Shown here: piece after piece, positions 7,973-57,832 of the stretch
Layout: every line of letters starts with the position of its first letter
Position numbering within the stretch: position 1 is the stretch's first letter
From: Rhizobiales bacterium Y(2018)
GTDB taxonomy: Bacteria; Pseudomonadota; Alphaproteobacteria; Rhizobiales; Aestuariivirgaceae
Assembly (NCBI GenBank): GCA_005502925.1
Contig: SCPD01000006.1
Location: 1-64,000 of the forward strand
DNA length: 64,000 bases
Direction of reading: 5' to 3'
Position numbers and translations under genes: made by a program
Notes under the pieces: generated by a model
Databases searched by the model: none
What the model was told of the DNA's origin: nothing
The model's input: only the letters and a program-made list of their open reading frames with translations

Positions 7973-8034
7973 GCCACCGCATAACCGTTTTTCGCGATTT
8001 TCTCTGTTTCTACCCTGTATCCGTCGGGGGCGTA

Positions 8035-8910: not shown

Positions 8911-9015
8911 GGCTGTTATGGGCTGATTTTCTTAGACAGTTGTCGCATTGCAGGATAGGACTCGGCGCCGTCATACTGCTTGCCCGAACCCGGCATGAGA
9001 GGGAGGAATTTGCTG

Positions 9016-10956
<1,941 letters not shown>

Positions 10957-10969
10957 GATTCCAAAAAGA

Positions 10970-21414: not shown

Positions 21415-21425
21415 TTCTTGAGACA

Positions 21426-21534
21426 CCCCACCCGGCGCTTCGCGCCACCCTCCCCGCAAAGCGGGGAGGGAGCAATTCAGGATCCACCCTCCCCGGAACG
21501 GGGAGGGTGGCGAGCGCAAGCGAGCCGGGTGGGG
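21426..21534. repeat. Nested palindromic repeat inside the ABC operon
   Basis: CCCCACCCGGC (21426-21436) pairs with GCCGGGTGGGG (21524-21534). Inside lie CCCTCCCCGC/GCGGGGAGGG and CACCCTCCCC/GGGGAGGGTG hairpins. The GGCGCTTCGCGCC and GAGCGCAAGCGAGC sub-motifs look like modules of dispersed rhizobial repeats. It sits between the binding-protein gene and the ATPase gene and could act as an mRNA processing or attenuation point that lowers ATPase and permease expression relative to the binding protein. Confidence 0.75.
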
Positions 21535-21545
21535 ATTTAATAAGC

Positions 21546-23431: not shown

Positions 23432-24189
23432 TCTGGCGTCTCGTCATCGCGCTATTCCTGCTCTTCATGCTGGGGCCGATCCTGCTCGTCGTGCTGTTCT
23501 CCTTCGGCTCGAACGCACTGATCGGTTTTCCAATGGGTGGGCTGACCCTCGACTGGTATACGAAGCTCGCTCAGGACACCGGTTTCCATTCCGCCTTCTG
23601 GGCGAGCTTCATCGTGGCGCTGGCGACGGCGACCCTCGCCACCATCACCGGCACCTGCGCGGCGCTGGCGCTCACCAAGGCAGCGCCCAAGCTGGTCAGA
23701 AGCGCACTCGCCGCTCTGTCGCTGCCGGTGCTGCTGCCGCCCTTGGTCGTTGCCATCGCCATCGTCGTGCTGTTCGTGCGTGGGCTGGGGCTCGGGCTTG
23801 GCTTGCCGGTCGTCATATTGGGCCACATATTGGTGGCGCAGCCTTTCGTCATCCTGATCGTGATGGCCAGGCTCGCCCGCTTCGATCAGGCGACCGTCGA
23901 TGCGGCGCGCGATCTCGGCGCCACGCACTGGCAGGCCTTCCGGCTCGTCACGCTGCCGCAGATTGCGAGCGCACTCATCGGCGCGGCGCTCGTCAGCGCC
24001 GCCATCTCGCTCGATGATTTCATCATCGCCTCCTTCACCATCGGCGGCGGCAACACGATCTCGACTTTCGTCTGGGGCAAGATGCGCACCACGCTCGATC
24101 CCTCGATCAATGCGATCGCGACGATCCTGCTGGTGCTGACAGTGGGGCTCTCGGCGCTGGCGCTCCGGGTGAGCAAGTATAAGGGCTAA
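23428..24189 (+). CDS. ABC transporter permease, PotC-like
   Basis: A 253-residue membrane protein with six predicted helices and the EAA-type loop (AARDLGATHWQAFRLVTLPQ). The SLDDFIIASFTIGGGNTIST motif is characteristic of PotC permeases. The start at 23428 overlaps the PotB-like gene by 4 nt; a much longer frame reading into the upstream gene has no membrane-protein character. It ends the operon before a palindromic repeat. Confidence 0.93.
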   Translation: MIWRLVIALFLLFMLGPILLVVLFSFGSNALIGFPMGGLTLDWYTKLAQDTGFHSAFWASFIVALATATLATITGTCAALALTKAAPKLVRSALAALSLPVLLPPLVVAIAIVVLFVRGLGLGLGLPVVILGHILVAQPFVILIVMARLARFDQATVDAARDLGATHWQAFRLVTLPQIASALIGAALVSAAISLDDFIIASFTIGGGNTISTFVWGKMRTTLDPSINAIATILLVLTVGLSALALRVSKYKG

Positions 24190-40569: not shown

Positions 40570-41871
40570 TTAGTTGCCCAAAATGGCGGATTCGAGGATG
40601 TCGAGGCCTTCCTTGAGGATGGCTTCCGACGCGGTGAGCGGGGTCAAGAGGCGGATCGTGTCGCCATAGACGCCGCAGCTCAGGATGAGCAGGCCGCGCT
40701 CGAGGCACTTGGCGACCAGCGCCTTGGCGCCCGCCGCATCCGGCTTGTTGCCGCCGCGCTCGGTCACGACCTCGAAAGCGACCATGGCGCCAAGCGCGCG
40801 GATCTCGCCCATCGGCATGCCCTGGTTCTTGGCCTTGATGGACTTGAGGCGCTCGACCATGAGCTTGCCCTGCTTTTCCGCCTTTTCGAGCAGGTTGTCC
40901 TGCTCGAAGGCATCGAACACGCCGAGAGCGGCGGCGCAGGATACCGGGTTGCCGGCATAGGTGCCGCCGAGGCCGCCCGGTTCCGGCGCATCCATCATCT
41001 TGGCGCGGCCGACGACACCGGCCAGCGGGAAACCGCCGGCGAGCGACTTGGCGACCGTCATCAGATCCGGCTCGACGCCCATATGCTCCATGGCGAACCA
41101 CTTGCCGGTGCGCCCGAAGCCCGACTGGATCTCATCGGCGATGAGCACGATGCCGTGATCGTCGCAAATCTTGCGCAGCGCCTTCATGAGCTCCTTGGGC
41201 GCCACATAGAAACCGCCCTCGCCCTGCACCGGCTCGATGACGATGGCCGCCACGCGCGACGGCTCGACATCGGCCTTGAACAGCCACTCGATCGCATGGA
41301 TCGAATCCTCGACGGTGACGCCGCGATGCGCGACCGGGAAAGGCACATGCCAGACGCCGCCCGGCATCGGACCGAACTTCGTCTTGTAGGGAACGACCTT
41401 GCCGGTCATCGCCATGGTGAGGAGGGTGCGGCCATGGAAGCTGCCCTGGAAGCAGATGATGTCGCTGCGGCCGGTATGGGCGCGGGCTATCTTGATGGCG
41501 TTCTCGACGGCTTCGGCGCCGGTGGTGACGAACAGGCTCTTCTTGTCACCCGAGATCGGCGCGATGGCGTTGAGCTTCTCGGCCAGCTCGATGAAGGGCG
41601 CATAGGGCGCCACCATGAAGCAGGTATGGGTGAAGGCGTTGAGCTGCTCCTGCACGCGCTTCATCACCGAGGGATGGCGATGGCCGGTATTGAGCACGGC
41701 GATGCCGCCGCCGAAATCGATGTAACGGCGGCCCTCGATGTCCCACATCTCGGAATCCTCGGCGCGTGCCGCAATCACCGGGGCGGCCATGCCGACCCCG
41801 CGCGAAACTGCTTTGGCGCGCCGTTCAACCCAAGCTTCGTTGAGGCCCTTGGCCGATGCCTTGACGTTCAT
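40570..41871 (-). CDS. gabT: 4-aminobutyrate aminotransferase
   Basis: A 433-residue class III aminotransferase. The PLP lysine is Lys275 in MTVAKSLAGGFPLAGV, and IADEIQSGFGRTGKWFAMEH plus IEPVQGEGGFYVAP are hallmark GabT sections. It converts GABA and 2-oxoglutarate to succinate semialdehyde and glutamate. No gabD lies next to it. It may accept GABA made by the guanidino-acid pathway proposed for the cluster at 45848-57072. It is divergent from an amidase gene, with 93 bp between starts. Confidence 0.93.
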   Translation of the reverse strand: MNVKASAKGLNEAWVERRAKAVSRGVGMAAPVIAARAEDSEMWDIEGRRYIDFGGGIAVLNTGHRHPSVMKRVQEQLNAFTHTCFMVAPYAPFIELAEKLNAIAPISGDKKSLFVTTGAEAVENAIKIARAHTGRSDIICFQGSFHGRTLLTMAMTGKVVPYKTKFGPMPGGVWHVPFPVAHRGVTVEDSIHAIEWLFKADVEPSRVAAIVIEPVQGEGGFYVAPKELMKALRKICDDHGIVLIADEIQSGFGRTGKWFAMEHMGVEPDLMTVAKSLAGGFPLAGVVGRAKMMDAPEPGGLGGTYAGNPVSCAAALGVFDAFEQDNLLEKAEKQGKLMVERLKSIKAKNQGMPMGEIRALGAMVAFEVVTERGGNKPDAAGAKALVAKCLERGLLILSCGVYGDTIRLLTPLTASEAILKEGLDILESAILGN

Positions 41872-41964
41872 GATATGGTCTCCTCAGAAATGCTGCGGCG
41901 TTCTACCTCCATTGACCCCCAGGCGGCAAATGGATTCAATTCGATAAAGCAGAGGGGCGACACC

Positions 41965-43380
41965 ATGACCAACCTGATTCGTAAATCCGCCAATGAGATC
42001 GTGGGGTTGCTGAAAACCGGCGAGATCTCGCCGCTCGACTGTCTCGCGGCATTGGAGACACGTATCGCCGAAGTCGATGGCCAAGTGAATGCCCTGCCGA
42101 CCTTATGTTTCGACCGGGCGCGCGACCGCGCCGCGAAGCTGATGAAGAAGCCTGTGGCCGAACGCGGGCCGCTCTGCGGCCTGCCGCTCCCGATCAAGGA
42201 TCTCAACGATGTGGCCGGCGTCCGCTCGACACAAGGCTCGCTTATCTTCGCCAACCATGTCCCGAAAAAGTCCGACATTCTGGTCGAGAATCTCGAAGAC
42301 CAGGGCGGCATTGTCTATGCGATGTCGAACACGCCGGAATTCGGCGCCGGCGCCAACACCTTCAATGAAGTCTTCGGCCGCACACTCAATCCGTGGAATC
42401 TGTCGCGTTCGGTGGCGGGCTCTTCGGGCGGTGCCGCGGCGGCGCTCGCCTCCGGCACGGCCTGGGTGGCGCATGGCTCCGACATGGGCGGCTCGTTGCG
42501 CAATCCGGCGAGCTTCTGCGGTGTCGTCGGCATGCGCCCGTCCCCCGGACGGGTGGCGATGAGTGTCTATGGCAAGATCGACGGCACGCTCGGCGTCGAC
42601 GGGCCGATGGCGCGCAATGTGGAAGATCTGGCGCTGCTCTTCGACGCCATGGTCGGCGCCAATCCGGCCGATCCTCTGTCGCTGCCGCGCGAGGACATAT
42701 CCTATCTCGAGCAGGCGCGCTCGGGACCCAAGCCGAAGCGCGTCGCCTTCAGCCGCGATCTCGGCATCACGCCGGTCGATCCGGAAGTGGTGGGGGTCGT
42801 CGAAAAGGCGGCATTGAAGCTCCAGGATGCCGGCGTCATCGTCGAGGAAGCGCATCCCGATTTCCGCGAAGCACATGACTGTTTCCAGGTCCTGCGGGCG
42901 CTCTCCTTCGTCACCGGCCTCAAGACGCTCTATGAGAATCACCGCGACAAGCTGAAGCCCGACGTCATCTGGAATATCGAAAAGGGCCTGGCGCTTACCG
43001 GTGCGGAGATTGCGCGGGCTGAGATGCAGCGGGGTGCCATGTTCGCGCGGGCGCGCGAATTCTTCGGCCGTTATGATCTCATTTTGTGTCCTGCCACCAT
43101 CGTGGCGCCGTTCCCGGTCGAGCAGCGTTATGTCGCCGAATGCGATGGGCACAAATTCTCGAACTATGTCGAATGGCTCGCCATCGTCTATGCTTTCACC
43201 AATGTGGCGTCGCCCGCCATTTCGATTCCGGCCGGCTTCACGGCCGAGAATCTGCCGGTCGGACTCCAGATCGCCGCCCCCTGCCGGGGCGAAGGCCGCC
43301 TGCTTGCCGCCGCAAAGCTCATGGAAGATGTGATCGGTCTCGGCCGCACCACCCCCATCGATCCCCGGCCGGGTGCTTGA
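41965..43380 (+). CDS. Amidase signature-family amidase
   Basis: A 471-residue amidase. The Ser-cisSer-Lys triad is readable as Lys78 in LPLPIKDLND, Ser153 in AGSSGGAAAAL and Ser177 in GSDMGGSLRNPAS, at the normal spacing. Family members hydrolyse aryl or aliphatic amides, and the substrate is not set by these motifs. AGAGGGG lies about 8 nt before ATG 41965. Position opposite gabT may suggest an amide related to amino-acid breakdown. Confidence 0.9.
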   Translation: MTNLIRKSANEIVGLLKTGEISPLDCLAALETRIAEVDGQVNALPTLCFDRARDRAAKLMKKPVAERGPLCGLPLPIKDLNDVAGVRSTQGSLIFANHVPKKSDILVENLEDQGGIVYAMSNTPEFGAGANTFNEVFGRTLNPWNLSRSVAGSSGGAAAALASGTAWVAHGSDMGGSLRNPASFCGVVGMRPSPGRVAMSVYGKIDGTLGVDGPMARNVEDLALLFDAMVGANPADPLSLPREDISYLEQARSGPKPKRVAFSRDLGITPVDPEVVGVVEKAALKLQDAGVIVEEAHPDFREAHDCFQVLRALSFVTGLKTLYENHRDKLKPDVIWNIEKGLALTGAEIARAEMQRGAMFARAREFFGRYDLILCPATIVAPFPVEQRYVAECDGHKFSNYVEWLAIVYAFTNVASPAISIPAGFTAENLPVGLQIAAPCRGEGRLLAAAKLMEDVIGLGRTTPIDPRPGA

Positions 43381-45847: not shown

Positions 45848-47689
45848 CTACAATATCCGCTTGCCGAAGGCGGAGAGCGCGAAATGGACCACTACGGAGG
45901 CGAGGCGCGGTTCCGCCTCGCCATCGAGGCCGGTTATGTCCATGCCGCGCATCGCCTTGCTCTGGTGGAACGCTTCCATCGCCTGATGGGTCTCGCGCAC
46001 CGTGATGCCGCCCGATCCCGGCAGGTGGCCCGGAATGTCGGTCACGGCGGGATTGTAGCTCACATGGAAGCCCTGCATGCCGGCCGCGGCGATCTGCACC
46101 GCCTGGCGGATTACCTCGCGCATGCCGAGCGCGTCGATATCGGCGATGGTGAAGATCTTGAGCCGGGCGGATTTCAGGATCTCCACTTCCTCGGGCGCCG
46201 TCTCACGCAAACCGATGAGAACGACATTCTCAGGCGAGAGCTTCGGCACCAGCGGCTCGGCATGGGCGCCCAGACCCAGCGCGCGGTAGAGAGCCGATTC
46301 TCCCGTCACTTCCTGTCCCGGCTGCTCGGGCAACATGCTCGCCACCGAATCGAGCCAGATGAGACCGAAGGCGTCGAGGCTTCGGCTCAGAGCTTTCATC
46401 GCCGCGAAGCTGGTGCGGTGATCGGCGCCGAAGACCAGAGGCGTGGCGCGCCGGTCCAGCGCCTGCGCGATGGCGTCGGCGGAGGTCGCGGTGGTGAAGT
46501 CGACATCATAGCCGATATTGGCGAGCCTGCCATCGAGCGTCTGCTTGTTGAGCACCGGCGCCACGGCCTCATCGGCGAAAATGCTCACGCGTGAGGCGGG
46601 GGTGGCGGTATGGCGGTCATACATCGGAATCTTCTCCACATATTCGGAGGTCATCGCGGCGAGCAGGGCACCATAGCTCATGCGGAAATTCACTCTATCG
46701 CCGACCTGGGGTGGATTTGCAGCCTCGGTGACGTCGAGAATCAGGTGGTCGCTCGAGGCGCCGAGCACGATAATGCCGGGCGCGACCGGCAAGAGACCCT
46801 CGATATGCGCATCCTCGCGCCCGATATTGACGATGCCGCGCAACCGCTCGCCGATGTCCTGGAAGACCGGGCGGCCGCCAAAGGCATCGACGCCCGATTT
46901 GCCGATCGGCATCGACGGCTTCATTTTCACTTCCAGCAATTCACCCGACAGCAGAAAGACGTCACGGTCGAGCTTGGGCTGCGGTGTGTCGAGGAAAGTG
47001 TCGCGCCCACCCTGCAATATCGCCTCGCCGATGCGCAGATTGTTGATGCCCTTGGGCATACCGCCCGCCAGCAGCAGCGGCAGCGAACTCGAATTGCCGC
47101 CCGATATGTAAGTGAGATCGAGACCGAAGGTCTTCCTTACCGTATCGGAGAGGTCGGTGAGCTGGCCGAGATTGACTTCGGTCGGGATGATGGCGCCGAA
47201 GCAGGTGAGATTGGTGCCGAGCCCGGCGATGCGGATCCCCGGCAGCTCGAGGATCTGCTCGACCGTCGGAATGAGGTCGTCGGGCCAGATGCCTTCGCGC
47301 AGGTCGCCCAGATCGATCATCAGGATGATGTCGTGGATGCGGCCCATGCGCTCGGCGACGCGCGACAGCTCACGGATGACCGTCAGCTCGGAATTGAGGC
47401 TGACATCGACGGAGCGGATGACCTCGTCGATGAGCGACAGAGGCGGCGAGCGCAATAGCATGATCGGGGCGTCGATGCCGGCGTCGCGCAAACGCTTGAT
47501 ATTCTCGAAACGCGATTCGGCGAGGCCCTGAACGCCGCCGCGCAACATGGCGCGCGCCACTTGCGGCATGCCGCAGGCGCCCTTGGTGACGCCGAAGGTG
47601 GAAATGCCGGCCTCGGCGCACCAGGACACGACCGTCCTGGCATTGCGCTCGATCCGTTCGAGGTCGATGGTGACTTGCGGGCCGGGCAT
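45848..47689 (-). CDS. Basic amino-acid racemase fused to a degenerate arginase-like domain
   Basis: A 613-residue fusion. Residues 1-370 form an alanine-racemase-type PLP barrel of the COG3457 (ornithine racemase-like) group; Lys36 in FGVTKGACGMPQ is the PLP lysine. Residues 380-613 match the ureohydrolase (arginase/agmatinase) fold: TPLVFGADHRT, LIWLDSVAS, NVVLIGLR, IFTIADIDALG, HVSYNPAVTD, GGITVRE. Of the two manganese sites only His424 and a few acidic residues remain: DAHxD reads DSVAS (447-451) and SxDxD reads SYNPA (544-548). Catalysis by that half is doubtful. It lies 9 nt after the dehydrogenase gene. Confidence 0.82.
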   Translation of the reverse strand: MPGPQVTIDLERIERNARTVVSWCAEAGISTFGVTKGACGMPQVARAMLRGGVQGLAESRFENIKRLRDAGIDAPIMLLRSPPLSLIDEVIRSVDVSLNSELTVIRELSRVAERMGRIHDIILMIDLGDLREGIWPDDLIPTVEQILELPGIRIAGLGTNLTCFGAIIPTEVNLGQLTDLSDTVRKTFGLDLTYISGGNSSSLPLLLAGGMPKGINNLRIGEAILQGGRDTFLDTPQPKLDRDVFLLSGELLEVKMKPSMPIGKSGVDAFGGRPVFQDIGERLRGIVNIGREDAHIEGLLPVAPGIIVLGASSDHLILDVTEAANPPQVGDRVNFRMSYGALLAAMTSEYVEKIPMYDRHTATPASRVSIFADEAVAPVLNKQTLDGRLANIGYDVDFTTATSADAIAQALDRRATPLVFGADHRTSFAAMKALSRSLDAFGLIWLDSVASMLPEQPGQEVTGESALYRALGLGAHAEPLVPKLSPENVVLIGLRETAPEEVEILKSARLKIFTIADIDALGMREVIRQAVQIAAAGMQGFHVSYNPAVTDIPGHLPGSGGITVRETHQAMEAFHQSKAMRGMDITGLDGEAEPRLASVVVHFALSAFGKRIL

Positions 47690-47698
47690 CGGTTCTGG

Positions 47699-48949
47699 TC
47701 AATTCACATAAAGCAGGCCGTCGGTGTCGATCTCGGGCCTGCGGCCGGAAACGAGATCGGCGACGAATTTCCCCGATCCGCAGGCCATCGTCCAGCCGAC
47801 ATGGCCATGGCCGCAATCGAGGAAGAGATTGGCGTAACGCGCCCGGCCCAATATCGGCACCGAGGCCGGCGTCATCGGCCTGAGGCCGGTCCAATATTCG
47901 GCTTTCGCACGATCGAAGGCGCCGGGAAAGAGATCTTCCGCGGTGGCGAGGAGCCGCGTGAAGTCGGAAGGCCTGTGGCTTCTGTCGTAGCCGGCGAATT
48001 CCGCCGTGCTCGCCACGCGCAAGCGATCGCCGAGCCTGGAATAGGCGATGAGCCGGTCCTCATCGACGCCGCCCATGGTCGGGCCCTTTGCGGGATCGTC
48101 GAGCGGCAAGGTGGCCGAATAACCCTTCACCGGATAGATCGGGACGTTGAGGCCGATCTTGCGGGTGAGGAGCGGCGTCTCGGGACCGAGGGCGATGACG
48201 ACCGCATCGCAATCGTGCCTCCCCTTGTCGGTGAGCACGGTGGTGACGCGATCACCTTGCGTCTCGATGCCAGTCACGGTCGTGCCGAGGCGCAGGCGGA
48301 CACTGAGATTCTGCGCGCACCAGCTGGCGAGGTTGCGCGAGAATTTGCAGGAATCACCGGTCTGGTCGATCGGCGAATAGACGGCGCCGGCGATGCCAGG
48401 GGCCGCCGCCTTCAGGCCCGGCTCCAGCTCGACGAGGCGCTCGCGCCCGATCACTTCGAGCGTCAGGCCGTTATCCGAGAGAATCCGCATATGTTTGGCG
48501 CCGGCATCGAGACTTTCCTGCGAGCGGAAGAAATAGAGGATGCCTCTGCCGTCCGCGTCATAATCGACCTTGGTCGCGGCGGCGATCTCATTGATGCAGG
48601 CCTTGGAATAGAAAGCGAGCCGCAGCTTGCGCAAGGTGTTGATATGCGCACGTGCATGGGTGCATTCGAACAGGAACTTCCAACCCCAGGCGACAAAGTG
48701 GGGATCGAGATTGAAGCGCACCTTGATGCCGAGATCGGGCCGGTAGAGCGACTTGATGAAGACGGCGAGTGCGGCGGGCGAAGCCCAGGCATAGGAATCG
48801 CCTGGCGAGACGAGGCCGGCATTGCCGTAGCTCGTCTCGCGCGCCAATACGTCGTTGCGCTCGATGAGCTCGACCTCGTGGCCGTCGCGGCCGAGATAAT
48901 AAGCAGCTGCCACACCGACCACACCGCCGCCGAGCACCAGCACTTTCAT
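47699..48949 (-). CDS. FAD-dependent D-amino-acid dehydrogenase (DadA/DauA-like)
   Basis: A 416-residue flavoprotein. The Rossmann motif is VLGGGVVGVAAAYYLG (G7, G9, G12). The central SYGNAGLVSPGDSYAW and the C-terminal GHGHVGWTMACGSGKFVADL are typical of membrane-associated D-amino-acid dehydrogenases. It oxidises a D-amino acid to the 2-oxo acid plus ammonia. With a racemase downstream and a 2-ketoarginine decarboxylase-like gene in the same cluster, D-arginine or another basic D-amino acid is the likely substrate (inference). Its start overlaps the stop of the C45 gene. Confidence 0.88.
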   Translation of the reverse strand: MKVLVLGGGVVGVAAAYYLGRDGHEVELIERNDVLARETSYGNAGLVSPGDSYAWASPAALAVFIKSLYRPDLGIKVRFNLDPHFVAWGWKFLFECTHARAHINTLRKLRLAFYSKACINEIAAATKVDYDADGRGILYFFRSQESLDAGAKHMRILSDNGLTLEVIGRERLVELEPGLKAAAPGIAGAVYSPIDQTGDSCKFSRNLASWCAQNLSVRLRLGTTVTGIETQGDRVTTVLTDKGRHDCDAVVIALGPETPLLTRKIGLNVPIYPVKGYSATLPLDDPAKGPTMGGVDEDRLIAYSRLGDRLRVASTAEFAGYDRSHRPSDFTRLLATAEDLFPGAFDRAKAEYWTGLRPMTPASVPILGRARYANLFLDCGHGHVGWTMACGSGKFVADLVSGRRPEIDTDGLLYVN

Positions 48950-49974
48950 AGGATGCCTCCCCTGATGGCCGTGCCTTTGGGCGGCCGCAAGCGTGGCGGC
49001 GTGGTGCCTTCGGCAAAGCGGATGCTGCGCGAACCTTCCTCGAACCGGGCGCAAGACTGGCGCCAGCGCGCCACCGGCCAGATCAGTTCGGCGGATGAAT
49101 CTTCAGGCCGGTAGAGTGCTGTATAGAGCGTACCATAGCCGCGCCCATAAGACGTCTGGAAAACCGGCGGGCGCAGAAAGTCCTTGAGCAGCTCTTCCGC
49201 CTCCGGTGCATCCACCATCGCCGCATCGAGACTTTCGGCACGCTCCAGCGAGCGGGTGGCCGCGGCATGGCGTGGCCATTCGATCTCATGCTGGTGATTG
49301 GTGCTGATCCGCCGGTCGAGCACTTCGGTCGGCCGGTCCGGCGCCACGAAGACGGTGGCATGGCGTCCCTTGCGGTCGAGCAGCGCCACCGAATAGGACA
49401 TATGCACCGGCACACGATCGAGAATTTTCACCGCCTGGGCGACGGTCGATGCGAATTCGAGCACATACCGCATGACGATCGGGATGCCGAAGCCGTCGCC
49501 CACCGCGGTGCGCCCGCCGAAAGCCAGCGATACGGCAAGGCCATCTTCGTTGATGCCGTCGAGCACACCCCACAGACAGTCGACCACGGCGAGGACGCGG
49601 CGGCCATGGAGCCTGGAGGCGAACCAGGTGCCTTCGAGAAGCTCGGGGCTATAATCGTAATTGCGCAAGAGGGCCGGTGCGCTGCCACTGCTGATCGCTT
49701 GCGAGCAGCCGCCGACATACATCGGCGGGCACCACATCGAGAGGAAGCGCGCTTCGAGATCGCCGCCGCCCGCCGTCTCGGCGATCCGCTCATAAGCCGG
49801 AAGCAATTCCGGCATATGCTGGCGCAAGGCGCGCAGACTCGCCAGATAGGTCGGACGAGCCTTCATGCCGTCGCGCATGAACCAGCGGCTATAGGCATGC
49901 CAATGACGGTCATAGATCGTCCGCCATTTCGGCCCCGGCTGGTCTTCCGCAATCGCTTCGAAGACGAGGTTCAT
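48946..49974 (-). CDS. C45-family autoproteolytic Ntn-hydrolase / acyltransferase
   Basis: A 342-residue protein. It resembles acyl-CoA:6-aminopenicillanate acyltransferase (peptidase family C45). The presumed self-cleavage and nucleophile site is Cys90 in MYVGGCSQAISSGS, which would become the N-terminal Cys of the beta chain, followed by LLRNYDYSPE and WGVLDGINEDGLAVSLAFGG, both typical. It may hydrolyse or form a linear amide. It sits between an ATP-grasp gene and the dehydrogenase gene, with the latter's start overlapping. The start at 49974 avoids an extension into a repeat. Confidence 0.82.
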   Translation of the reverse strand: MNLVFEAIAEDQPGPKWRTIYDRHWHAYSRWFMRDGMKARPTYLASLRALRQHMPELLPAYERIAETAGGGDLEARFLSMWCPPMYVGGCSQAISSGSAPALLRNYDYSPELLEGTWFASRLHGRRVLAVVDCLWGVLDGINEDGLAVSLAFGGRTAVGDGFGIPIVMRYVLEFASTVAQAVKILDRVPVHMSYSVALLDRKGRHATVFVAPDRPTEVLDRRISTNHQHEIEWPRHAAATRSLERAESLDAAMVDAPEAEELLKDFLRPPVFQTSYGRGYGTLYTALYRPEDSSAELIWPVARWRQSCARFEEGSRSIRFAEGTTPPRLRPPKGTAIRGGIL

Positions 49975-49983
49975 CCCACCTAT

Positions 49984-50094
49984 CCTCACCCTGAGGTGCC
50001 CGCCGAAGGCGGGCCTCGAAGGGTCTGTATCCACAAATTCGCCCTATCCTGAGGGCTGCTTCGAGGCTCGCTGCGCTCGCACCTCAGCATGAGG
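49984..50094. repeat. Palindromic repeat inside the catabolic cluster
   Basis: CCTCACCCTGAGGTGC (49984-49999) pairs with GCACCTCAGCATGAGG (50079-50094), two mismatches. Within the element, GCCCGCCGAAGGCGGGC is a strong hairpin and GCTTCGAGGCTCGCTGCGCT a second GC-rich motif. It fills the gap between the ATP-grasp and C45 genes. It is a third type of dispersed-looking repeat in this window. Confidence 0.72.
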
Positions 50095-50100
50095 GGAAAT

Positions 50101-51555
50101 TCACAGTATCTTGAACGACCCCGGCGCGGGGGCTTCCTCTCTCTGCACTTCGCTCAGTGGCTTCGCCGCATAAAGCTTCTTGATGCCTTTGATCCAGTCA
50201 CGCGCCCGGTCGTTCAGGTCGAAGTCGTCGCTCATCACGCGGCCGCGGGTGATCAGGATGCCGAGATCGGCGCCTTCATAGCGATAGTCGCCGGGGCCGG
50301 TGATGCGCAGGAAGAAAGCCTCGCGCTCGGATTCGATGGCCTGGCGGTTATAGTCGAAACGGTCATAGGAGACCGAGCCGTCGCTCGCCATGCGATAGAC
50401 GCCGGTCGGCGGCGCGTGGGTCACGATGTCGACGATATCGTCGGTCGATTTGATGACGAGCTGTGACCAGGAATCGATGAATTCCTTCTTCGCCCAGCGT
50501 TCATTCAGCTCCTCGACATCGATCTTGTATTTGAGGCCGGAGAATTCGAGGAGATGGAACAGGAAGAGCGGCGCGTCGGCATAAGCGAAGGCTGCGTGAT
50601 TGGTCATCGAGGAGGCGCCGCAGATGCGCGGATTGAGCTCGCCCAGATAGACCTCGCCGTCGGTCTCATCGATCAGGAAATCGAGATCGAAATAGCCGCG
50701 ATAGCCTTCCTTGATCAGCCGGTTGCCGAAGCGGAACGCCATGTCACGCGCCTTGTTGCGCACTTTTTCGCTGAAGGCGCCGGGGAAGATCTCATTGCCG
50801 CACCAGCCGCCCTTATAGGGGGTCAGTTCCTTGCGGCCGACCACTTCGGTCAGAAGCGGGCCGACCAGTGTACCGGACCTCGTCGCACAGGCCTCCATCG
50901 TGGCGCCGCGGCATTTGATCCGCTTCATGATCTTCACTTCCTTTTCGCCCGTGATGTCCTTCGCATGGCGGGCGAAGTCCTGCTCATTGGCGATGAAGAA
51001 AGTGGTGTGGCCGGAATCACCGAAGGCGCTCTGCACCACGAGGTCGCGGCCGATCTTCGCCTTGTCGGCGACCTTGATCAGCTCGTCATAGCTGGACGCG
51101 CGCGCCAGCGTGTTCGGCACCGAGGCGACGCCCGCTTTGTTGCCGATGCGGACCGTCTCCATCTTGTTGTCGCAGCGCGAGCGGAGCTTCGCTTGCGGAA
51201 ACCACACATCGATGCCGAGTTCTTCGCACAGGCCTTCCGTCTCCTCGTCGAACATCAGGAAGGTCGCGGCCGGCTTGCCGCCGCGCTTCTTCACATGATC
51301 AATCACATCCTTGTGCTGAAGCATGTGATTGTTGATGTCTTCGATCGATTCGAACTCATCATGCGGCGCCTTGGAAGGCACGAAGACATTGGGATGGCGG
51401 CCGTCGAAACAGTCGATATAGGAGATGAATTTGAGATTGCGCACCCACTGGTCGATGCCGATCAGGTTGAAGTTGGTGGCCGAGATGAAATAGATCGGCT
51501 GCTCGTTGCGATGCATGACATTGCGCAAATCCGAAACGTTCCTGACCGTCTGCAT
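50101..51555 (-). CDS. ATP-grasp (biotin carboxylase-like) ligase
   Basis: A 484-residue protein. The central ATP-grasp domain has DLVVQSAFGDSGHTTFFI as the glycine-rich loop, EVKIMKRIKCRG, and the metal-binding YFDLDFLIDETDGEVYLGEL followed by NPRICGASSM. It lacks a biotin carboxylase C-terminal domain signature, so a carboxylate-amine ligase is more likely than a carboxylase. Substrate unknown. The ATG at 51555 follows AGGGAGA. A longer frame upstream reads inside the aldehyde dehydrogenase gene and was not used. The gene lies 16 nt after that gene. Confidence 0.82.
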   Translation of the reverse strand: MQTVRNVSDLRNVMHRNEQPIYFISATNFNLIGIDQWVRNLKFISYIDCFDGRHPNVFVPSKAPHDEFESIEDINNHMLQHKDVIDHVKKRGGKPAATFLMFDEETEGLCEELGIDVWFPQAKLRSRCDNKMETVRIGNKAGVASVPNTLARASSYDELIKVADKAKIGRDLVVQSAFGDSGHTTFFIANEQDFARHAKDITGEKEVKIMKRIKCRGATMEACATRSGTLVGPLLTEVVGRKELTPYKGGWCGNEIFPGAFSEKVRNKARDMAFRFGNRLIKEGYRGYFDLDFLIDETDGEVYLGELNPRICGASSMTNHAAFAYADAPLFLFHLLEFSGLKYKIDVEELNERWAKKEFIDSWSQLVIKSTDDIVDIVTHAPPTGVYRMASDGSVSYDRFDYNRQAIESEREAFFLRITGPGDYRYEGADLGILITRGRVMSDDFDLNDRARDWIKGIKKLYAAKPLSEVQREEAPAPGSFKIL

Positions 51556-51571
51556 CGCCACTTCATTCTCC

Positions 51572-53017
51572 CTAGCTGATGATACGCCGTGTCTTGTGCT
51601 TGACTTCGAGATAGGCATCGAGGCCCCAGGGCCCGAGCTCGCGGCCGACGCCGCTCGCCTTGAAGCCGCCCCAGGAGGTCTCGACGAAGATGACCTGCGG
51701 GCTGTTGATCCAGACCAGGCCGGTGTCGATCGCGTCGGCGACACGTTCGGCTTTCACCACGTCTTTGCTGATCACTGTCGCCACCAGGCCGAAATCACTG
51801 TCATTGGCGAGCGCAACCGCCTCATCCTCGCGAGTGAAGGTCTTCACGCACAGGACAGGGCCGAAAATCTCCTCACGCCAGAGAGGGCTCGAAACCGGGA
51901 CATCGCCGAATATAGTCGGAGCGATGAACCAGCCGATCTCGAGCCCCACCGGCCTGTCGCCGCCCAGGATCAGATCGAGTTTTTCGGCCTTGCCCTTGGC
52001 GATGTAGGACAGGACCTTGTCATATTGGGCCTTGGTGGTGAGAGGCCCGAGAGTCGTCTGGGGATCGAGCGGATCACCTGGCTTCAAAGCCTTGGCTGCC
52101 GTGATGACACGCTCCATCAGCTTCGGCGCGATCGAGTCCTCGACCAGAAGCCTGGAGGTCGCCGAGCACATCTGGCCGGCATTGAAGAAGATGCCGTTCG
52201 TCACGCATTCGGTGGCGATGTCGAGATCGGCATCGGCGAAGACGACGATCGGCGATTTACCGCCGAGCTCGAGGCTCACCGCCTTGGAGCCGGCCGCGGC
52301 CGCCGCCATCACGCGCGAGCCCACGCCGTTGCTGCCGGTGAAGGAGATCTTGGCGACATCCTTATGCGTGGTGAGCGGGGCACCGACATCGGGGCCAAGT
52401 CCGGTGACGAGATTGAGCACGCCTTTAGGCAAGCCGATCGCGTCGGCGATTGTACCGAGCTCGAGCTCGACGATGGGCGTCACCTCGGACGGCTTCAGCA
52501 CCACGGTGCAGCCGGCGGCAAGCGCCGGCGCCACTTTCCACGAGGTCGTCACCATCGGGAAATTCCACGGCACGATCAGCCCGGCGACGCCGATCGGCTC
52601 ACGCCGAAGGCTGGCGCGGAAGGCGCCGTCCGGCACTGAAACGGATGAGTCCTGCTCGCGGTCGAGATCGGCGGCGAGCCCGCCATAATAGTCGAAGGAG
52701 GACGCGACATCCTGCATGTCGATGAGCGCCTCGGCGAGTGGCTTGCCGTTGTTGAGCGAGGAGAGCCGGGCGAGTTCGTCCTTGCGCTGACGCACCTTCT
52801 CCGCGATGGCGCGCAGGAACTGCCCGCGCACGGCGCCGGAAGTGCGGCGCCAGGCCGGAAAGGCCTTGGCTGCCGCTTTTACCGCGAGATCCACATCCTC
52901 AGGGCCACCCGCTGCGACATGATGGATGACCTGTTCGGTATAGGGATTGAAGACGGGCAGCTTGCCCCCTTTCACCGGGGCACGCCATTCGCCGTCTATA
53001 TAGAGCTTGTCCTGCAT
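51572..53017 (-). CDS. Aldehyde dehydrogenase (guanidinobutyraldehyde-type candidate)
   Basis: A 481-residue NAD-dependent aldehyde dehydrogenase. Key residues are visible: VPWNFP (150-154), Glu250 in SLELGGKS and catalytic Cys284 in FNAGQMCSATSR. Nearest families are betaine-aldehyde and gamma-aminobutyraldehyde dehydrogenases. Coupled to the decarboxylase-like gene (TGATG overlap), it may oxidise 4-guanidinobutyraldehyde to 4-guanidinobutyrate, as KauB does in Pseudomonas. That substrate is inferred from context. Confidence 0.88.
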   Translation of the reverse strand: MQDKLYIDGEWRAPVKGGKLPVFNPYTEQVIHHVAAGGPEDVDLAVKAAAKAFPAWRRTSGAVRGQFLRAIAEKVRQRKDELARLSSLNNGKPLAEALIDMQDVASSFDYYGGLAADLDREQDSSVSVPDGAFRASLRREPIGVAGLIVPWNFPMVTTSWKVAPALAAGCTVVLKPSEVTPIVELELGTIADAIGLPKGVLNLVTGLGPDVGAPLTTHKDVAKISFTGSNGVGSRVMAAAAAGSKAVSLELGGKSPIVVFADADLDIATECVTNGIFFNAGQMCSATSRLLVEDSIAPKLMERVITAAKALKPGDPLDPQTTLGPLTTKAQYDKVLSYIAKGKAEKLDLILGGDRPVGLEIGWFIAPTIFGDVPVSSPLWREEIFGPVLCVKTFTREDEAVALANDSDFGLVATVISKDVVKAERVADAIDTGLVWINSPQVIFVETSWGGFKASGVGRELGPWGLDAYLEVKHKTRRIIS

Positions 53018-54624
53018 CACTTGGCCAGTTCGCGGGCGAGGCTGTCGCCGGCGCGGATTTCGATGACGGTCGGGACCTTGCGCTTCGCCGACTGGACCAG
53101 CTCCTTGTGGAGCGCCGCGATATTGGCGGGGCGTACCGCCTTGCAGCCCAGCCCCGAGGCGATGGTGACGAAATCCGGCGTGTAGATGTCGACGCCGATC
53201 TCGGGGATCTGGCGCTCCATCATATAGGCCTTGATCTCGCCATAGCCGGTGTTGTTCCAGATCACCACCGCGAGCGGGACTTGCGCCTCGACGGCGGAAG
53301 CAAGCTCGGGCAGCGAGAATTGCAGGCCGCCATCACCGATGAGGCAGACGGAGGGACGATCCGGCTGGCCGAGCTTGGCGCCGATTGCGGCGGGAAGCCC
53401 ATAACCCAGCGTGCCGTAGCCGGTGCTCGAATTGAAATAGGAGCGCGGCCTCGGCGCTTCATAAGTCTGGTTCGACGCATAGACGGGCTCGGTCTGGTCG
53501 CCGGCGATGACCACATCCGGCAACGCCTTGCTGATGACTTCGAGCAGGCGGCCATGCGTCTTGCAGGCGGGCCACAATTTGCTGGTGATCTTCTTGCGCG
53601 TCGCGGCGGCACGCTCGGCGCCTTTACGCGACTGGAAGGTCGAGCCAATCGCTTCATTCAGCGCCGCGACAGCGAGGGCGCTGTCGGCGGTAATCGCGAT
53701 ATCGGCGGGCAGCTGGTTGACGAGCTGCAAGGGATCGATGTCGATGCGGATGAGCTTGCCCGTGACCTCGACGGGGCGCGCCGCCGGATACATTTCGGTC
53801 TCACCGAATTCGGTACCGATGGCGAGGACGACATCGCTCGCTTCGAGCTCGGCCTGCGCCGCATCCATGCCGAGATTGCCGGCGAGCGCCAATTTGTGGC
53901 CGGGCGGCAGGATACCCTTGCCGTTGATGGTCGTGAAGACCGGCGCGTCGAGCGTCTCAGCCAGCTTCTGGATGCCAGGCGCTGCATCGGCAGCACCGCC
54001 GCCGGCGAGGATCAGCGGCGTCTTGGCGTTTTTCAGCAGTTTCGCCGCGGCCGCGATCAACTGCGGCTCGGCGGCGGGACGCGAGGGCAGCGGCCAGGCC
54101 TTGGCCTTGCCGCTCATGCGCGAGGTGATGACATCGAGCGGAAGCTCGATATGGACGGGCCGCGGCCTGGAACCGGAGAAGACCGCGAAAGCGCGCGCCA
54201 GCACTTCCGGCAGCTGCTTGGGATCGAGCACCGTGTGGCTGAAAGCCGACACGCCGGCGATGAGATTGCGCTGCGAGGGAAGCTCATGCAGGCGGCCCTG
54301 CGCCATGCCGAGATGCGTCCGGTCGTTGACGCTCGAGATCACCAGCATGGGGATCGAATCGGCATAGGCCTGGCCCATGGCGGTGGCGATATTGGTCATG
54401 CCGGGACCGGTGATGATGAAACACACGCCGGGCTTGCCCGAGGCGCGCGCATAACCATCGGCCATGAAGCCGGCGCCCTGCTCATGGCGCGGTGTCACAT
54501 GACGGATGCGGGTCTGCGGCAGGCCGCGATAAAGCTCGACGGTATGGACGCCGGGAATGCCGAAAATCGTGTCGACGCCATAGGCTTCGAGAATCTTGAC
54601 GAGGAATTCACCACAGGTGGGCAC
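53017..54624 (-). CDS. aruI: TPP-dependent 5-guanidino-2-oxopentanoate decarboxylase-like enzyme
   Basis: A 535-residue thiamine-diphosphate enzyme of the acetolactate-synthase group. The N-terminus (FGIPGVHTVELYRGLP, then HVTPRHEQGAGFMADGYAR with Glu48) and the C-terminal GDGG...WNNTGYGEI cofactor motif closely resemble proteins annotated as 2-ketoarginine decarboxylase (AruI). These convert 5-guanidino-2-oxopentanoate to 4-guanidinobutyraldehyde and CO2. The symbol is provisional. No aruH transaminase lies nearby; a racemase and D-amino-acid dehydrogenase do. Confidence 0.8.
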   Translation of the reverse strand: MPTCGEFLVKILEAYGVDTIFGIPGVHTVELYRGLPQTRIRHVTPRHEQGAGFMADGYARASGKPGVCFIITGPGMTNIATAMGQAYADSIPMLVISSVNDRTHLGMAQGRLHELPSQRNLIAGVSAFSHTVLDPKQLPEVLARAFAVFSGSRPRPVHIELPLDVITSRMSGKAKAWPLPSRPAAEPQLIAAAAKLLKNAKTPLILAGGGAADAAPGIQKLAETLDAPVFTTINGKGILPPGHKLALAGNLGMDAAQAELEASDVVLAIGTEFGETEMYPAARPVEVTGKLIRIDIDPLQLVNQLPADIAITADSALAVAALNEAIGSTFQSRKGAERAAATRKKITSKLWPACKTHGRLLEVISKALPDVVIAGDQTEPVYASNQTYEAPRPRSYFNSSTGYGTLGYGLPAAIGAKLGQPDRPSVCLIGDGGLQFSLPELASAVEAQVPLAVVIWNNTGYGEIKAYMMERQIPEIGVDIYTPDFVTIASGLGCKAVRPANIAALHKELVQSAKRKVPTVIEIRAGDSLARELAK

Positions 54625-54687
54625 ACTAGTTCTCCTTGCAGATGTCAGCGGCCGGAGCAGTACCGAGGTTCGGCCGCAAAGACCATC

Positions 54688-55584
54688 TCATTCCTCATCG
54701 TGGAATTCGGCGGTGCGCGGCACGATGATCATCGGCACCGGTGCGTTGCGGATGATGCGGCTGCCATTGGAGCCGAGAAAGACCTGGGCCAGGGGACCGA
54801 TGCGGCCCGAGCCGATCACCAGCATCTCGCCGGGCTTCCAGCCGATGGAAGAGAGTGCCTCTTTCCAGTTGGCGCCGTCGCCGATCTGAGTCTTGACCGG
54901 CACGTCGCTCTGCAACTCGGCCAGCAGCGCCTTCTGCGTCGCGGTCGCTTGGTTCTTCCATTGATTGGCGACGAGATTTTCGCTCCGGTAGCCGGCGCCC
55001 GTCGGATACATCTGCTTGTCGCGCACCACGAAGGTGGAGAGGCGGAGCGGGACCTGATATTTGCGGGCGAATTTGAGGCAATATTCGACGGTGGCGCGCG
55101 ACTTGCGCGTCGCCGCGAAGGCGCAGGTCAGGCGGGTGAGCACCGTCTTCGGTCCCGCCTCGAAACCGCGCGGCGCCAGCGCCACCGGCAATTTCGACAG
55201 ATGCAGCAGGTTGCGGGTGACGCTGCCTTCCAGGAACTTGCCCGAAGCGGCGGTGCGCGAGGAGCCGAGCACGATGATGTCGGCGCCAAGTTCCTCGGCG
55301 GTGGCGATGAGGCCTTCCTCGGCCGAGTTGTTGTTGCGGGTGATGAACTGCACCGGCAGCTGATCGCCGACATAGGCCTTCGCCTTGTCGAGCGTCTTCT
55401 GCGCGTGCTTGTCGAGAAAGGCCGCATATTCCGCATCGACATTGGCCATCGAGGGATAACCCCAGGTCTTGGGCAATATCAGGCAGACGACGAGTTTCGC
55501 CTTGTCGCGTTTGGACAGCATCATGCCGAGCGACAGTGCTTCCTGTCCGCCGCGATCGGCCGAATAGGCAACCAGATATTTCAT
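54688..55584 (-). CDS. Tandem universal stress protein
   Basis: A 298-residue protein with two UspA domains, residues about 1-140 and 150-290. The first opens with KYLVAYSADRGGQEALSLG and has the ATP-type loop GSSRTAASGKFLEGS; the second ends GSGRIGPLAQVFLGSNGSRI followed by PVPMIIVP. Role unknown; its place between the permease and decarboxylase genes suggests it modulates transport or responds to the same signal. It lies 15 nt after the permease gene. Confidence 0.88.
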   Translation of the reverse strand: MKYLVAYSADRGGQEALSLGMMLSKRDKAKLVVCLILPKTWGYPSMANVDAEYAAFLDKHAQKTLDKAKAYVGDQLPVQFITRNNNSAEEGLIATAEELGADIIVLGSSRTAASGKFLEGSVTRNLLHLSKLPVALAPRGFEAGPKTVLTRLTCAFAATRKSRATVEYCLKFARKYQVPLRLSTFVVRDKQMYPTGAGYRSENLVANQWKNQATATQKALLAELQSDVPVKTQIGDGANWKEALSSIGWKPGEMLVIGSGRIGPLAQVFLGSNGSRIIRNAPVPMIIVPRTAEFHDEE

Positions 55585-55599
55585 GGCACCCTCCGCGCT

Positions 55600-57072
55600 T
55601 TACGACTTGGTGATGCGAGCTTTGGGCTCGAGCCGGGACTTCTTGACGCTGTAGAGGAAGTAGAAGACCGCCGCGAGGAACAGCCATATGCCGAACAGCT
55701 CGTAGACCTGCACCTTGAGGTTGGAGATCAGATAGAGCGAGGACAGGATGCTGAGGATGGGCAGCACCGGATAGAATGGCACTTTGAAGCCGCGCGGCAG
55801 ATCGGGCTTGGTGCGGCGCAGGATCATCACACCGGCCGAGACGACGATGAAGGCGGTGAGCGTGCCGAGGCTGGTCAGGTCCCACAGGATGTCGTTCGGG
55901 ATGAAGGCGGCGATGGCGCCGACGAACAAGGCCACCGCGATGGTGTTGGCGACCGGCGACAAAGTGCGCGGATTGACCCGGTGAAACAGCTCGGGGATGA
56001 GCCCGTCACGCGACATGGCGAAGAGGATGCGGGTCTGGCCATAGAGCACGACCAGTGTCACGCTGAACACCGAGATGACGGCGCCGATAGCGAGGATCAG
56101 CGCCGGCCAGTTCGAGCCGGTGAGATTCTGCAGGATGGTGGCGAGGCCCGCTTCCTGGCCCTCGAAGGCGGCCGCCGGTTGGACGCCGAGCGCCGTCACC
56201 GCGGTCAGCACATAAAGCGAGGTCACGATGATGAGCGCCGCGATGATGGCGAGCGGCAGGTTGCGTTTCGGATTCTCCACTTCTTCGCCGGCGGTCGAAA
56301 CCGCATCGAGGCCGACATAGGTGAAGAAGATGGTGCCGGCGGCGGCGCTGATGCCTGCGAAGCCGGCGGGTGCGAAAGGCTGGAAGTTGCTGGCGGAGAA
56401 ACCGGTGACGGCGATGGCGATGAAGAGGATGAGGACGCCGATCTTGATCATCACCATGACGGCATTGGCCTTAGCCGATTCCTTGGTGCCGCGGATGAGC
56501 ATCAGGCAGCAGAGGAAGACCAGGATGGCGGCCGGCAGGTTGATATAACCGTCGCCGCCGACGGCGAGCCGGTGATTGTCGGAAATGAGGGGAGCGGCGG
56601 AAAGCGCCGCGGGGAGACCCGAGCCGAAGACGATCTCGAACAGCTTGTTGAGATAACCGCTCCAGCCGATGGCGACGGCCGAGGCCGAGATGCCGTATTC
56701 GAGGACGAGACAGGCGCCGACGAAATAGGCGATGATTTCGCCTAAAGTCGCATAGGCATATGAATAGGACGAGCCTGAGACCGGGATCATCGAGGCCATT
56801 TCGGCGTAGCAGAGCGCGGTGAGGCCGGCGACGACGCCCGCCATGAGGAAGGAAATGATGACCGACGGCCCGGCGGTCGGCACGGTCTCCGAGAGAACGA
56901 AGAAAATACCCGTTCCGATGGTGGCGCCGACACCGAACATGATGAGCTGGAATAGGGTGATCGAGCGGCCGAGATGGCCATGCTCGGAATCGCCCCCTTG
57001 GGTTTCACTGATGAGTTTCTCGACCGGCTTCTTGCGCAGCAGCCGAAAGCCCAGCGTTTGCTGTTCTGACAT
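55600..57072 (-). CDS. APC-family amino acid permease (cationic amino-acid type)
   Basis: A 490-residue permease with about twelve helices. The start of helix 1 carries FGVGATIGTGIFFVLSETV, the unwound-helix GxG motif of the APC superfamily, and SYSYAYATLGEIIAYFVGAC is a helix-3 hallmark of the CAT/YfnA group. Cationic amino acids such as arginine are plausible. GGGAGG lies 6 nt before ATG 57072. It is first in the minus-strand catabolic operon and divergent from the Lrp gene. Confidence 0.9.
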   Translation of the reverse strand: MSEQQTLGFRLLRKKPVEKLISETQGGDSEHGHLGRSITLFQLIMFGVGATIGTGIFFVLSETVPTAGPSVIISFLMAGVVAGLTALCYAEMASMIPVSGSSYSYAYATLGEIIAYFVGACLVLEYGISASAVAIGWSGYLNKLFEIVFGSGLPAALSAAPLISDNHRLAVGGDGYINLPAAILVFLCCLMLIRGTKESAKANAVMVMIKIGVLILFIAIAVTGFSASNFQPFAPAGFAGISAAAGTIFFTYVGLDAVSTAGEEVENPKRNLPLAIIAALIIVTSLYVLTAVTALGVQPAAAFEGQEAGLATILQNLTGSNWPALILAIGAVISVFSVTLVVLYGQTRILFAMSRDGLIPELFHRVNPRTLSPVANTIAVALFVGAIAAFIPNDILWDLTSLGTLTAFIVVSAGVMILRRTKPDLPRGFKVPFYPVLPILSILSSLYLISNLKVQVYELFGIWLFLAAVFYFLYSVKKSRLEPKARITKS

Positions 57073-57266
57073 AATGTTCCTCCCGACACCCCTGTAGCGG
57101 CAACCGGTCTCGCAAGGTGGGATGCGGCCGGCCTTAGGCGTTCGATGGCGCTTGAGCGCGCTTATTCTTGACGGCGCTTTTACCGTGAAACGGCCAAAAT
57201 GTGCTGCCGTAGTTTGGGGCACGCACAAGCGAAGCTATCGACATGTGACCCCCGCAAAGTGGTTTC

Positions 57267-57286
57267 TGCTGTCCCACTCGACAGCA
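57267..57286. promoter_or_regulatory. Candidate Lrp operator between permease and regulator
   Basis: TGCTGTC (57267-57273) and GACAGCA (57280-57286) are a perfect seven-base inverted repeat with a six-base spacer. It is located in the 259-base divergent region, 45 nt before the regulator gene. Position and symmetry fit a dimer-binding site; the binding protein is not established. Confidence 0.45.
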
Positions 57287-57331
57287 TCCGCCCTTCGGTG
57301 TCAAATGGCTCTCCGCGGGAAGGGGTGGAAG

Positions 57332-57832
57332 ATGAAAGACAGCGACGCATCCGTGAGGCTCGACCATCTCGACCTCAAGATCCTGGCCAAGCTGCAGACC
57401 GATGCCCGCATCACCAACCAGGAATTGGCCGATGCGGTGGGCTTGTCGCCCAGCCCCTGCCTGCAGCGCGTCAAAAGGCTGGAGCGGGCCGGCATCATCG
57501 CGATGTACCAGGCGCAGATCGATATCAACAAAGTGTGCCGGCATGTCGACGTCATCGCCGCCGTCACCTTGAACAGTCATGGCCTCGAGGATTTCAACGA
57601 TTTCGAGAAGATGGTCGCCGACATGCGTTATGTCGTCGAATGCACCAAGGTGTCGGGCACCATCGATTATCTGGTGCGTTTCATCTGTCCCGATATCGGC
57701 TCCTATCAGATGTTGTCGGACGAACTCCTGAGGCTTGGTCCCAAAGTGGGAAATCTGAGCTCCTATATCGTGCTGAAGGCGGTGAAGCCCTATCGCGGCG
57801 TGGTGCTCGACGATCTCGTCAATCCCGGTTAA
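57332..57832 (+). CDS. Lrp/AsnC-family transcriptional regulator
   Basis: A 166-residue regulator. The N-terminal helix-turn-helix reads [20 protein letters not shown], then [19 protein letters not shown], typical of Lrp. The C-terminal RAM ligand-binding domain runs from about residue 80 ([13 protein letters not shown]). Divergent from the amino-acid cluster, it is the likely activator or repressor of that operon in response to the transported amino acid. The ATG at 57332 follows GGAAG; a 70-residue upstream extension is not family-like. Confidence 0.92.

Follow-up and report, generated by a model that had tools for sequence, protein, structure and literature searches.

In Pseudomonas, arginine can be degraded by the arginine transaminase pathway, which consists of AruH, AruI, KauB and GbuA and is regulated by the AruRS pair. 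A version of this pathway that relies on AspC and IlvB1 has been described in Sinorhizobium meliloti (PMC7268258). Here, we analyze an eight-gene operon carried on a 64,000-nucleotide stretch of DNA (referred to below as the window) from Rhizobiales bacterium Y(2018) (assembly GCA_005502925.1, contig SCPD01000006.1, positions 1 to 64,000). The operon encodes an AruI-like enzyme together with an aldehyde dehydrogenase, a D-amino-acid dehydrogenase and an unusual racemase. Judging from its gene content and from the relatives of each gene, it probably degrades arginine by a route in which the AruH transaminase step is replaced by the racemase and the D-amino-acid dehydrogenase.

RESULTS

The eight-gene operon was confirmed as real. 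Eight co-directional genes run on the - strand from 57072 down to 45848, either separated by 9 to 66 bases or overlapping by 4; judged by coordinates, the D-amino-acid dehydrogenase and C45 genes share 4 bases. In order, the genes encode an APC permease, a tandem universal stress protein (Usp), an AruI-like thiamine pyrophosphate (TPP) enzyme, an aldehyde dehydrogenase, an ATP-grasp protein, a C45 family protein, a flavin adenine dinucleotide (FAD)-dependent D-amino-acid dehydrogenase and a 613-residue racemase. The original prediction placed the permease first and listed the AruI-like enzyme, the aldehyde dehydrogenase, the racemase and the D-amino-acid dehydrogenase as encoded together, and each of these genes is located where it was said to be; left unmentioned were the ATP-grasp, C45 and Usp genes and the fact that the racemase carries an arginase half.

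A search for related loci returned 18 with a relative of this racemase fusion, 8 of them full length. All eight genes occur in the same order in two near relatives (L009 and L010), and the order recurs, at protein identities of 49-81%, in the Shinella-type loci L013 (Shinella sp. SUS2) and L057. It is also shown by the annotation of a further Shinella-type locus, L116, whose plasmid record bears the label Roseateles sp. XES5 and the flag UNVERIFIED_ORG. Two more loci (L011 and L014) start at the aldehyde dehydrogenase gene because their contigs end there. Since the same order recurs in five loci, the gene arrangement is more than chance.

The relatives' operons also contain genes that bear on the substrate. 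In all three Shinella-type loci that extend far enough (L013, L057 and L116), the Usp and aruI genes are separated by a gene for a ureohydrolase. Against guanidinobutyrase GbuA (3NIO), the L116 enzyme reaches 510.7 bits, compared with 302.9 against 3-guanidinopropionase (3NIP) and 208.2 against the best agmatinase. In a Rhizobiaceae metagenome-assembled genome (MAG; L012), gbuA (85% identical to the L116 copy), aruI, the dehydrogenase and the fusion stand in a row, and the same stretch gave no match to the ATP-grasp, C45, aldehyde dehydrogenase or Rid gene; a weak CN-hydrolase-like match there (28%, in an over-long open reading frame [ORF]) was unconfirmed by Pfam and was not used. The source genome of the window encodes GbuA on another contig (G000:C5:27214-28161), 87% identical to the Shinella-type operon enzyme, with the next paralogue at 48%. 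Because guanidinobutyrase removes the guanidino group after the carboxyl carbon has been lost, the substrate of the AruI-like enzyme should be 2-ketoarginine. GbuA makes the most sense if the guanidino group outlasts decarboxylation, and arginine is therefore favored over ornithine or lysine. A second gene, of the Rid family, follows the fusion in all four Shinella-type loci that reach that point (L013, L057, L116 and L014); PF01042 was confirmed for the L116 copy. Rid2 and Rid3, and not RidA or Rid1, are reported to deaminate the iminoarginine released by the D-arginine dehydrogenase DauA (PMC5619798). As a proposal, the path originally predicted, from L-arginine through D-arginine and 2-ketoarginine to 4-guanidinobutyrate, is well supported by gene context.

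The family assignment of the AruI-like protein (53017-54624, - strand) is strong: it scores 771.9 bits against NCBIfam NF005712 (cut-off, 500), which would make it a TPP-dependent 2-ketoarginine (5-guanidino-2-oxopentanoate) decarboxylase, the substrate being presumed. Glu48, the putative TPP-activating residue, is retained in all 21 homologue loci and Asn457 in 19 of them; the roles of both residues are assumed here. Three more AruI-like enzymes, at 591-630 bits against the same cut-off of 500, are encoded in the source genome, which has 14 TPP-enzyme N-domain matches, and two of the three lie near agmatinase-type genes. By eye, the 51% identical AruI homologues of three Mesorhizobium-like loci (L160, L161 and L164) adjoin an apparent dimethylargininase/amidinotransferase gene.

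The next enzyme (51572-53020, - strand; Aldedh, 552.5 bits) is an aldehyde dehydrogenase of the aminoaldehyde/betaine-aldehyde type, and we propose that it acts as a 4-guanidinobutyraldehyde dehydrogenase. Its nearest solved relatives are plant betaine/aminoaldehyde dehydrogenases; Cys285 is present in 10 of 10 homologue loci and Glu251 in 9 of 10. When membership in the KauB family was examined, the protein reached the cut-off of none of the 25 best NCBIfam models. The FAD-dependent D-amino-acid dehydrogenase (47699-48949, - strand) falls within the DadA subfamily (PRK00711, 438.8 bits; cut-off, 383) and may be a D-arginine dehydrogenase. A glycine oxidase is its best solved relative (79.4 bits).

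The absence of AruH from the predicted gene set was also borne out within the operon, where ORFs, Pfam and NCBIfam revealed no aminotransferase gene; the search for AruH did not extend to other parts of the genome. Nor does any other cluster combining the fusion with AruI appear to hold one: none is annotated in L116, and the gaps in L009, L010, L012, L013 and L057 leave no room. AruI homologues (E <= 1e-150) were found in 21 of 397 genomes of the order. Five of these have the window-type cluster, and 12 loci were fetched from the other 16. In these and several of the other neighborhoods described here, the genes are simple ORF picks, whose start, extent and even presence may be wrong (the AruI gene of L162 was missed). 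Four of the 12 loci have a class I aminotransferase gene near aruI: it immediately precedes aruI in L162 and L165 and is farther upstream in L158 (about 1.6 kb) and L159 (4.3 kb); the identity of the aminotransferase rests on Pfam for L158 and L165, on NCBIfam for L158, L159 and L165, and on sequence clustering for L162. Two of the four (L158 and L159) encode GabT proteins 59% and 63% identical to that of the window, and another of the 12, L167, carries a guanidinobutyrase (72%). With an aminotransferase of this class next to aruI or no more than 4.3 kb away in 4 of these 12 loci, it looks as though the racemase and the D-amino-acid dehydrogenase have taken over the step that a transaminase performs in the known pathway.

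Across the same 397 genomes, AruI at 60% identity or more occurs in six and the full-length fusion in nine, with both in five (Fisher test, 9e-9, a value inflated because the five co-occurring genomes span two genera only). Three of the four remaining fusion genomes (G209, G309 and G336) carry the dehydrogenase-fusion pair in stretches where AruI is absent; in the fourth, G095, whose fusion relative is at 42% identity, the stretch has neither the dehydrogenase nor AruI. A 50-51% AruI homologue is encoded elsewhere in G209, in G309 and in the genome of L016 (Mesorhizobium sp. CU3).

The last gene of the operon (45848-47689, - strand) encodes a fusion of an Orr-type pyridoxal phosphate (PLP) racemase (residues 1-353) with a metal-less pseudo-arginase (about 365-613). 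Residues 1-353 match the NCBIfam Orr model (NF040742) at 416.5 bits, under its curated cut-off of 480, and residues 395-593 match Pfam Arginase at 81 bits (cut-off, 22). An AlphaFold model of the fusion (predicted local distance difference test [pLDDT] score, 85.0; predicted template modeling score, 0.61) places the racemase half in fold-type III, aligned with alanine racemase 5yyc over 334 residues (Z 30.0; root mean square deviation [rmsd], 3.1), and model residues 366-613 align with Thermus arginase 2ef5 over 235 residues (Z 28.2; rmsd, 2.2; 29% identity). Lys36, which we take to be the PLP lysine, is kept in every one of the 29 homologue loci. In the arginase half, the DAHxD motif has become DSVAS and the SxDxD motif SYNPA, with the Glu of GGxTxRE retained; here, the metal-binding positions and the roles of the motif residues are taken from the arginase literature. 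Alignments of 20 fusion homologues (16 Pseudomonadota records, one Lentisphaeria MAG and three others of the same phylum as the MAG, some of the 20 being closely related), read by eye, showed at least four of the six metal-ligand positions altered in every one, and no fusion with an intact arginase metal site was seen among them.

Because most of the metal ligands are gone, the arginase fold should not hydrolyze arginine, and the idea of an active fused arginase was rejected on these grounds. Decay of this half could likewise be dismissed, on the ratio of nonsynonymous to synonymous substitution rates (dN/dS). In 12 chosen pairs among 15 sequences, dN/dS was 0.06-0.24 for the arginase half and 0.02-0.20 for the racemase half, and dN was the higher in the arginase half in all 12. 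The pseudo-arginase half is kept by purifying selection, though it is less constrained than the racemase half, and conservation of the fusion extends to two phyla. Most likely, this half has a structural or ligand-sensing function.

Several observations were made on fusions and their component families elsewhere. In four PVC-phylum loci (L015, L176, L177 and L178), an EamA-type transporter gene follows the fusion (by Pfam for L015, by eye for the others), an AsnC-like regulator gene appears by eye to be divergent in L177 and L178, and inspection by eye of the neighbors revealed no AruI or D-amino-acid dehydrogenase. Plasmids of Sinorhizobium sp. RAC02 and Shinella zoogloeoides gave further fusion matches. 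In the order, Orr-like racemases that stand alone (L060, L061, L062 and L063, around 8000-11000) are encoded beside genes that group with a DUF1611, DgcN-like gene, as assigned by Pfam and NCBIfam on L060 alone, where DgcN was under its cut-off. The source genome has 17 arginase-family matches, the fusion included.

Two further operon genes, for the ATP-grasp and C45 proteins, appear to form an active-looking accessory module. The ATP-grasp protein (50101-51555, - strand), a probable ligase, scores 772 bits against NF005096 (PRK06524; cut-off, 684), and the C45 family protein (48946-50034, - strand), an autoproteolytic (Ntn-type) acyltransferase/hydrolase, 178.4 bits against NF040521 (cut-off, 85). 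The residues that we take to be catalytic are invariant, E306/N308/R310 in 35 of 35 ATP-grasp loci and Cys110 in 31 of 31 C45 loci (some loci overlap). None of the other seven operon proteins is conserved as well as ATP-grasp (80.8-99.8% in five relatives). Although the NCBI name of its model is "biotin carboxylase," this identity was rejected, there being no biotin/lipoyl domain among the Pfam matches of the ten proteins scanned. A phmmer comparison of the C45 protein with solved structures gave nothing better than E 0.65, and the AlphaFold model of the ATP-grasp protein (pLDDT, 34.7, with six close sequences aligned) was not used for its fold.

The ATP-grasp family occurs in 14 of 297 genomes of the order (13 over the curated cut-off) and in 11 of 398 genomes of the phylum (8 over). 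Among the 14 order loci outside the window-type cluster, all of which were fetched, C45 adjoins ATP-grasp in 11 and an Orn/Lys/Arg-type decarboxylase does so in 8 (assigned by Pfam OKR_DC_1 for the L090 copy and by clustering for the others); nine further loci from the phylum have C45 and the decarboxylase in every case and a CN-hydrolase in seven. A CN-hydrolase gene also lies beside the Lrp gene in L116, its product 60% identical to that of the decarboxylase locus L090, and another is present in L057 (79%). In L121, the module is found between DoeB and EutB in an ectoine cluster (DoeA, 670.2; DoeB, 491.4; EutB, 465.6; EhuR, 599.9 bits; all over cut-off); L120 looks similar by eye, with no EutB seen. 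The module accompanies the decarboxylation of basic amino acids in general, and an arginine-specific role was rejected because of its occurrence in the ectoine cluster. One guess is that a protecting or trapping group is attached by the ligase and taken off again by the amidase. Other occurrences include a more distant ATP-grasp gene of the source genome, by rpsB/tsf and without C45 (L100); a second ATP-grasp/C45 pair in the Shinella-type loci L096, L097 and L098, its two proteins sharing about 48% and 43% identity with those of the window, with no decarboxylase-cluster gene beside it; and a C45 gene that follows ATP-grasp and is truncated before an IS30 transposase gene in R. leguminosarum OyaliB (L115), where the decarboxylase gene is split in two.

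The APC-family permease (55600-57072, - strand; Pfam AA_permease_2, 182.2 bits) holds the same position in L009, L010, L057 and L116, and the tandem Usp (54688-55584, - strand) matches Pfam Usp over two stretches (101.1 bits). As predicted, an Lrp/AsnC regulator gene (57332-57832, + strand; Pfam HTH_24, HTH_AsnC-type and AsnC_trans_reg) is divergent from the operon; the L057 regulator is 81% identical and divergent from the permease there, too. The gabT gene that had been noted at about 4 kb (40570-41871, - strand; TIGR00700 [GABAtrnsam], 576.9 bits; cut-off, 506.65) is 4.0 kb from the operon and encodes a gamma-aminobutyrate (GABA) transaminase, the likely end of the route; in L009 and L010, gabT likewise lies 3.8-6 kb past the fusion gene. 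By eye, an amidase-like protein is encoded divergently from gabT (41083-43380), and an apparent polyamine-type ABC transporter set occupies 20290-24189.

DISCUSSION

The route that we propose would begin with import of L-arginine by the permease, with Lrp sensing the same compound. The Orr-type half of the fusion would racemize L-arginine to D-arginine, which the FAD dehydrogenase would oxidize to iminoarginine/2-ketoarginine, perhaps with the aid of Rid in the relatives. The AruI-like enzyme would then decarboxylate 2-ketoarginine to 4-guanidinobutyraldehyde, and the aldehyde dehydrogenase may convert this product to 4-guanidinobutyrate. Finally, guanidinobutyrase, encoded elsewhere in the source genome, would release urea and GABA, the latter presumably being removed by GabT.

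Several findings weigh against this route. GbuA and Rid are absent from the window operon, and Rid has no match in L012. Eight of the 12 other AruI loci have no called gene of the aminotransferase cluster in question (other kinds of aminotransferase were not sought). The ATP-grasp, C45 and Usp genes are left unexplained by arginine degradation. The stretches of four loci (L016, L056, L058 and L069) contain the dehydrogenase-fusion pair and no AruI, and the pair is therefore not tied solely to the proposed route. The racemase is nearest to ornithine racemase, yet it is under the cut-off of that model (416.5 versus 480), and the S. meliloti AruI homologue IlvB1 is reported to prefer 5-amino-2-oxopentanoate (PMC7268258).

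The Orr model being the best family match of the racemase and the preference of IlvB1 also speak for the principal rival, a route from L-ornithine through D-ornithine, 5-amino-2-oxopentanoate and 4-aminobutyraldehyde to GABA, with a separate arginase feeding in the ornithine. The aminoaldehyde type of the aldehyde dehydrogenase would suit such a route equally, and the arginase remnant on the racemase may hint at an ancestral link between arginase and ornithine chemistry. However, an ornithine route needs no guanidinobutyrase, yet one is encoded in the operons of the Shinella-type loci and the Rhizobiaceae MAG, and the fused arginase lacks its metal site; we therefore regard this explanation as unlikely. 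Less probable still, in our opinion, is a broad operon for environmental D-basic amino acids (D-arginine, D-ornithine and D-lysine), in which the racemase would work from D to L or equilibrate the two pools. The DadA subfamily is of broad specificity, and the four loci with the pair and no nearby AruI would be accommodated, but a racemase is needless if the dehydrogenase takes D-enantiomer food directly, and the presence of GbuA and AruI in the same clusters points to arginine. Alternatively, the cluster might build or cleave an amide derived from a decarboxylated basic amino acid, its racemase-AruI genes feeding the module and not GABA. This reading is suggested by the recurrence of ATP-grasp/C45 with Orn/Lys/Arg-type decarboxylases and CN-hydrolases and in an ectoine cluster, and by the conservation of ATP-grasp, the highest in the operon, but seems very improbable given that the core route is present in L012, whose stretch gave no match to ATP-grasp or C45, and that GbuA, GabT and the aldehyde dehydrogenase are plain catabolic enzymes.

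Within arginine degradation through D-arginine, a more ambitious version can be entertained, though we hold it only tentatively and consider it rather doubtful as a whole. The fusion would genuinely racemize arginine, and its dead arginase half, retained in evolution as a sensor, would be an arginine-binding regulatory domain; urea, once released at the start by arginase, would now be released at the end by guanidinobutyrase; and a previously undescribed CN-hydrolase/ATP-grasp/C45 ligase-amidase module would accompany the decarboxylation of basic amino acids across Pseudomonadota.

If the proposed route is correct, bacteria have one more way of using arginine, via its D-enantiomer, and genes labelled merely "alanine racemase," "agmatinase" and "biotin carboxylase" (for example, those of L116) are explained. 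The fusion offers another natural case, besides the Fusobacterium Oda protein, in which to study the role of a dead arginase on a PLP enzyme, and the ATP-grasp/C45 module is a testable puzzle in amino acid metabolism. A literature search, which for the most part did not cover subscription papers, yielded no description of the route, the fusion or the module among the matches listed, and the S. meliloti IlvB1 paper (PMC7268258) does not use the word racemase.

Compared with the arginine transaminase pathway, the operon and its genomic surroundings share the AruI family, an aldehyde dehydrogenase, a guanidinobutyrase and the GABA end. They differ in that the operon is without an AruH-type transaminase and has a racemase and an FAD D-amino-acid dehydrogenase instead, with Lrp presumably in the place of AruRS. 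The DauA/DauB system of P. aeruginosa (PMC5619798) is similar in that an FAD dehydrogenase makes a 2-imino/2-keto acid from a D-amino acid and Rid can help; however, DauB returns 2-ketoarginine to L-arginine, whereas here the flow is proposed to run from L-arginine to D-arginine and on to decarboxylation. A parallel to the fusion is Oda of Fusobacterium nucleatum, a PLP ornithine decarboxylase with a C-terminal nonfunctional arginase domain in which metal-binding Asp has changed to Ser/Asn (PMC12826042). In the present fusion, by contrast, the PLP part is a racemase of fold-type III, and none whose arginase site is intact was found. In metformin hydrolase MetCaCb (PMC11271267), MetCb is likewise a metal-free pseudoenzyme of the arginase family and is needed for metformin hydrolysis, but it is a separate subunit paired with an active ureohydrolase and has no racemase fusion. 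Finally, ectoine catabolic clusters (EhuR, DoeA, DoeB and EutB) can contain the CN-hydrolase/ATP-grasp/C45/decarboxylase module, as in L121, whereas the window operon is without ectoine genes. The parts of this operon are of known kinds; it is their combination that looks new.

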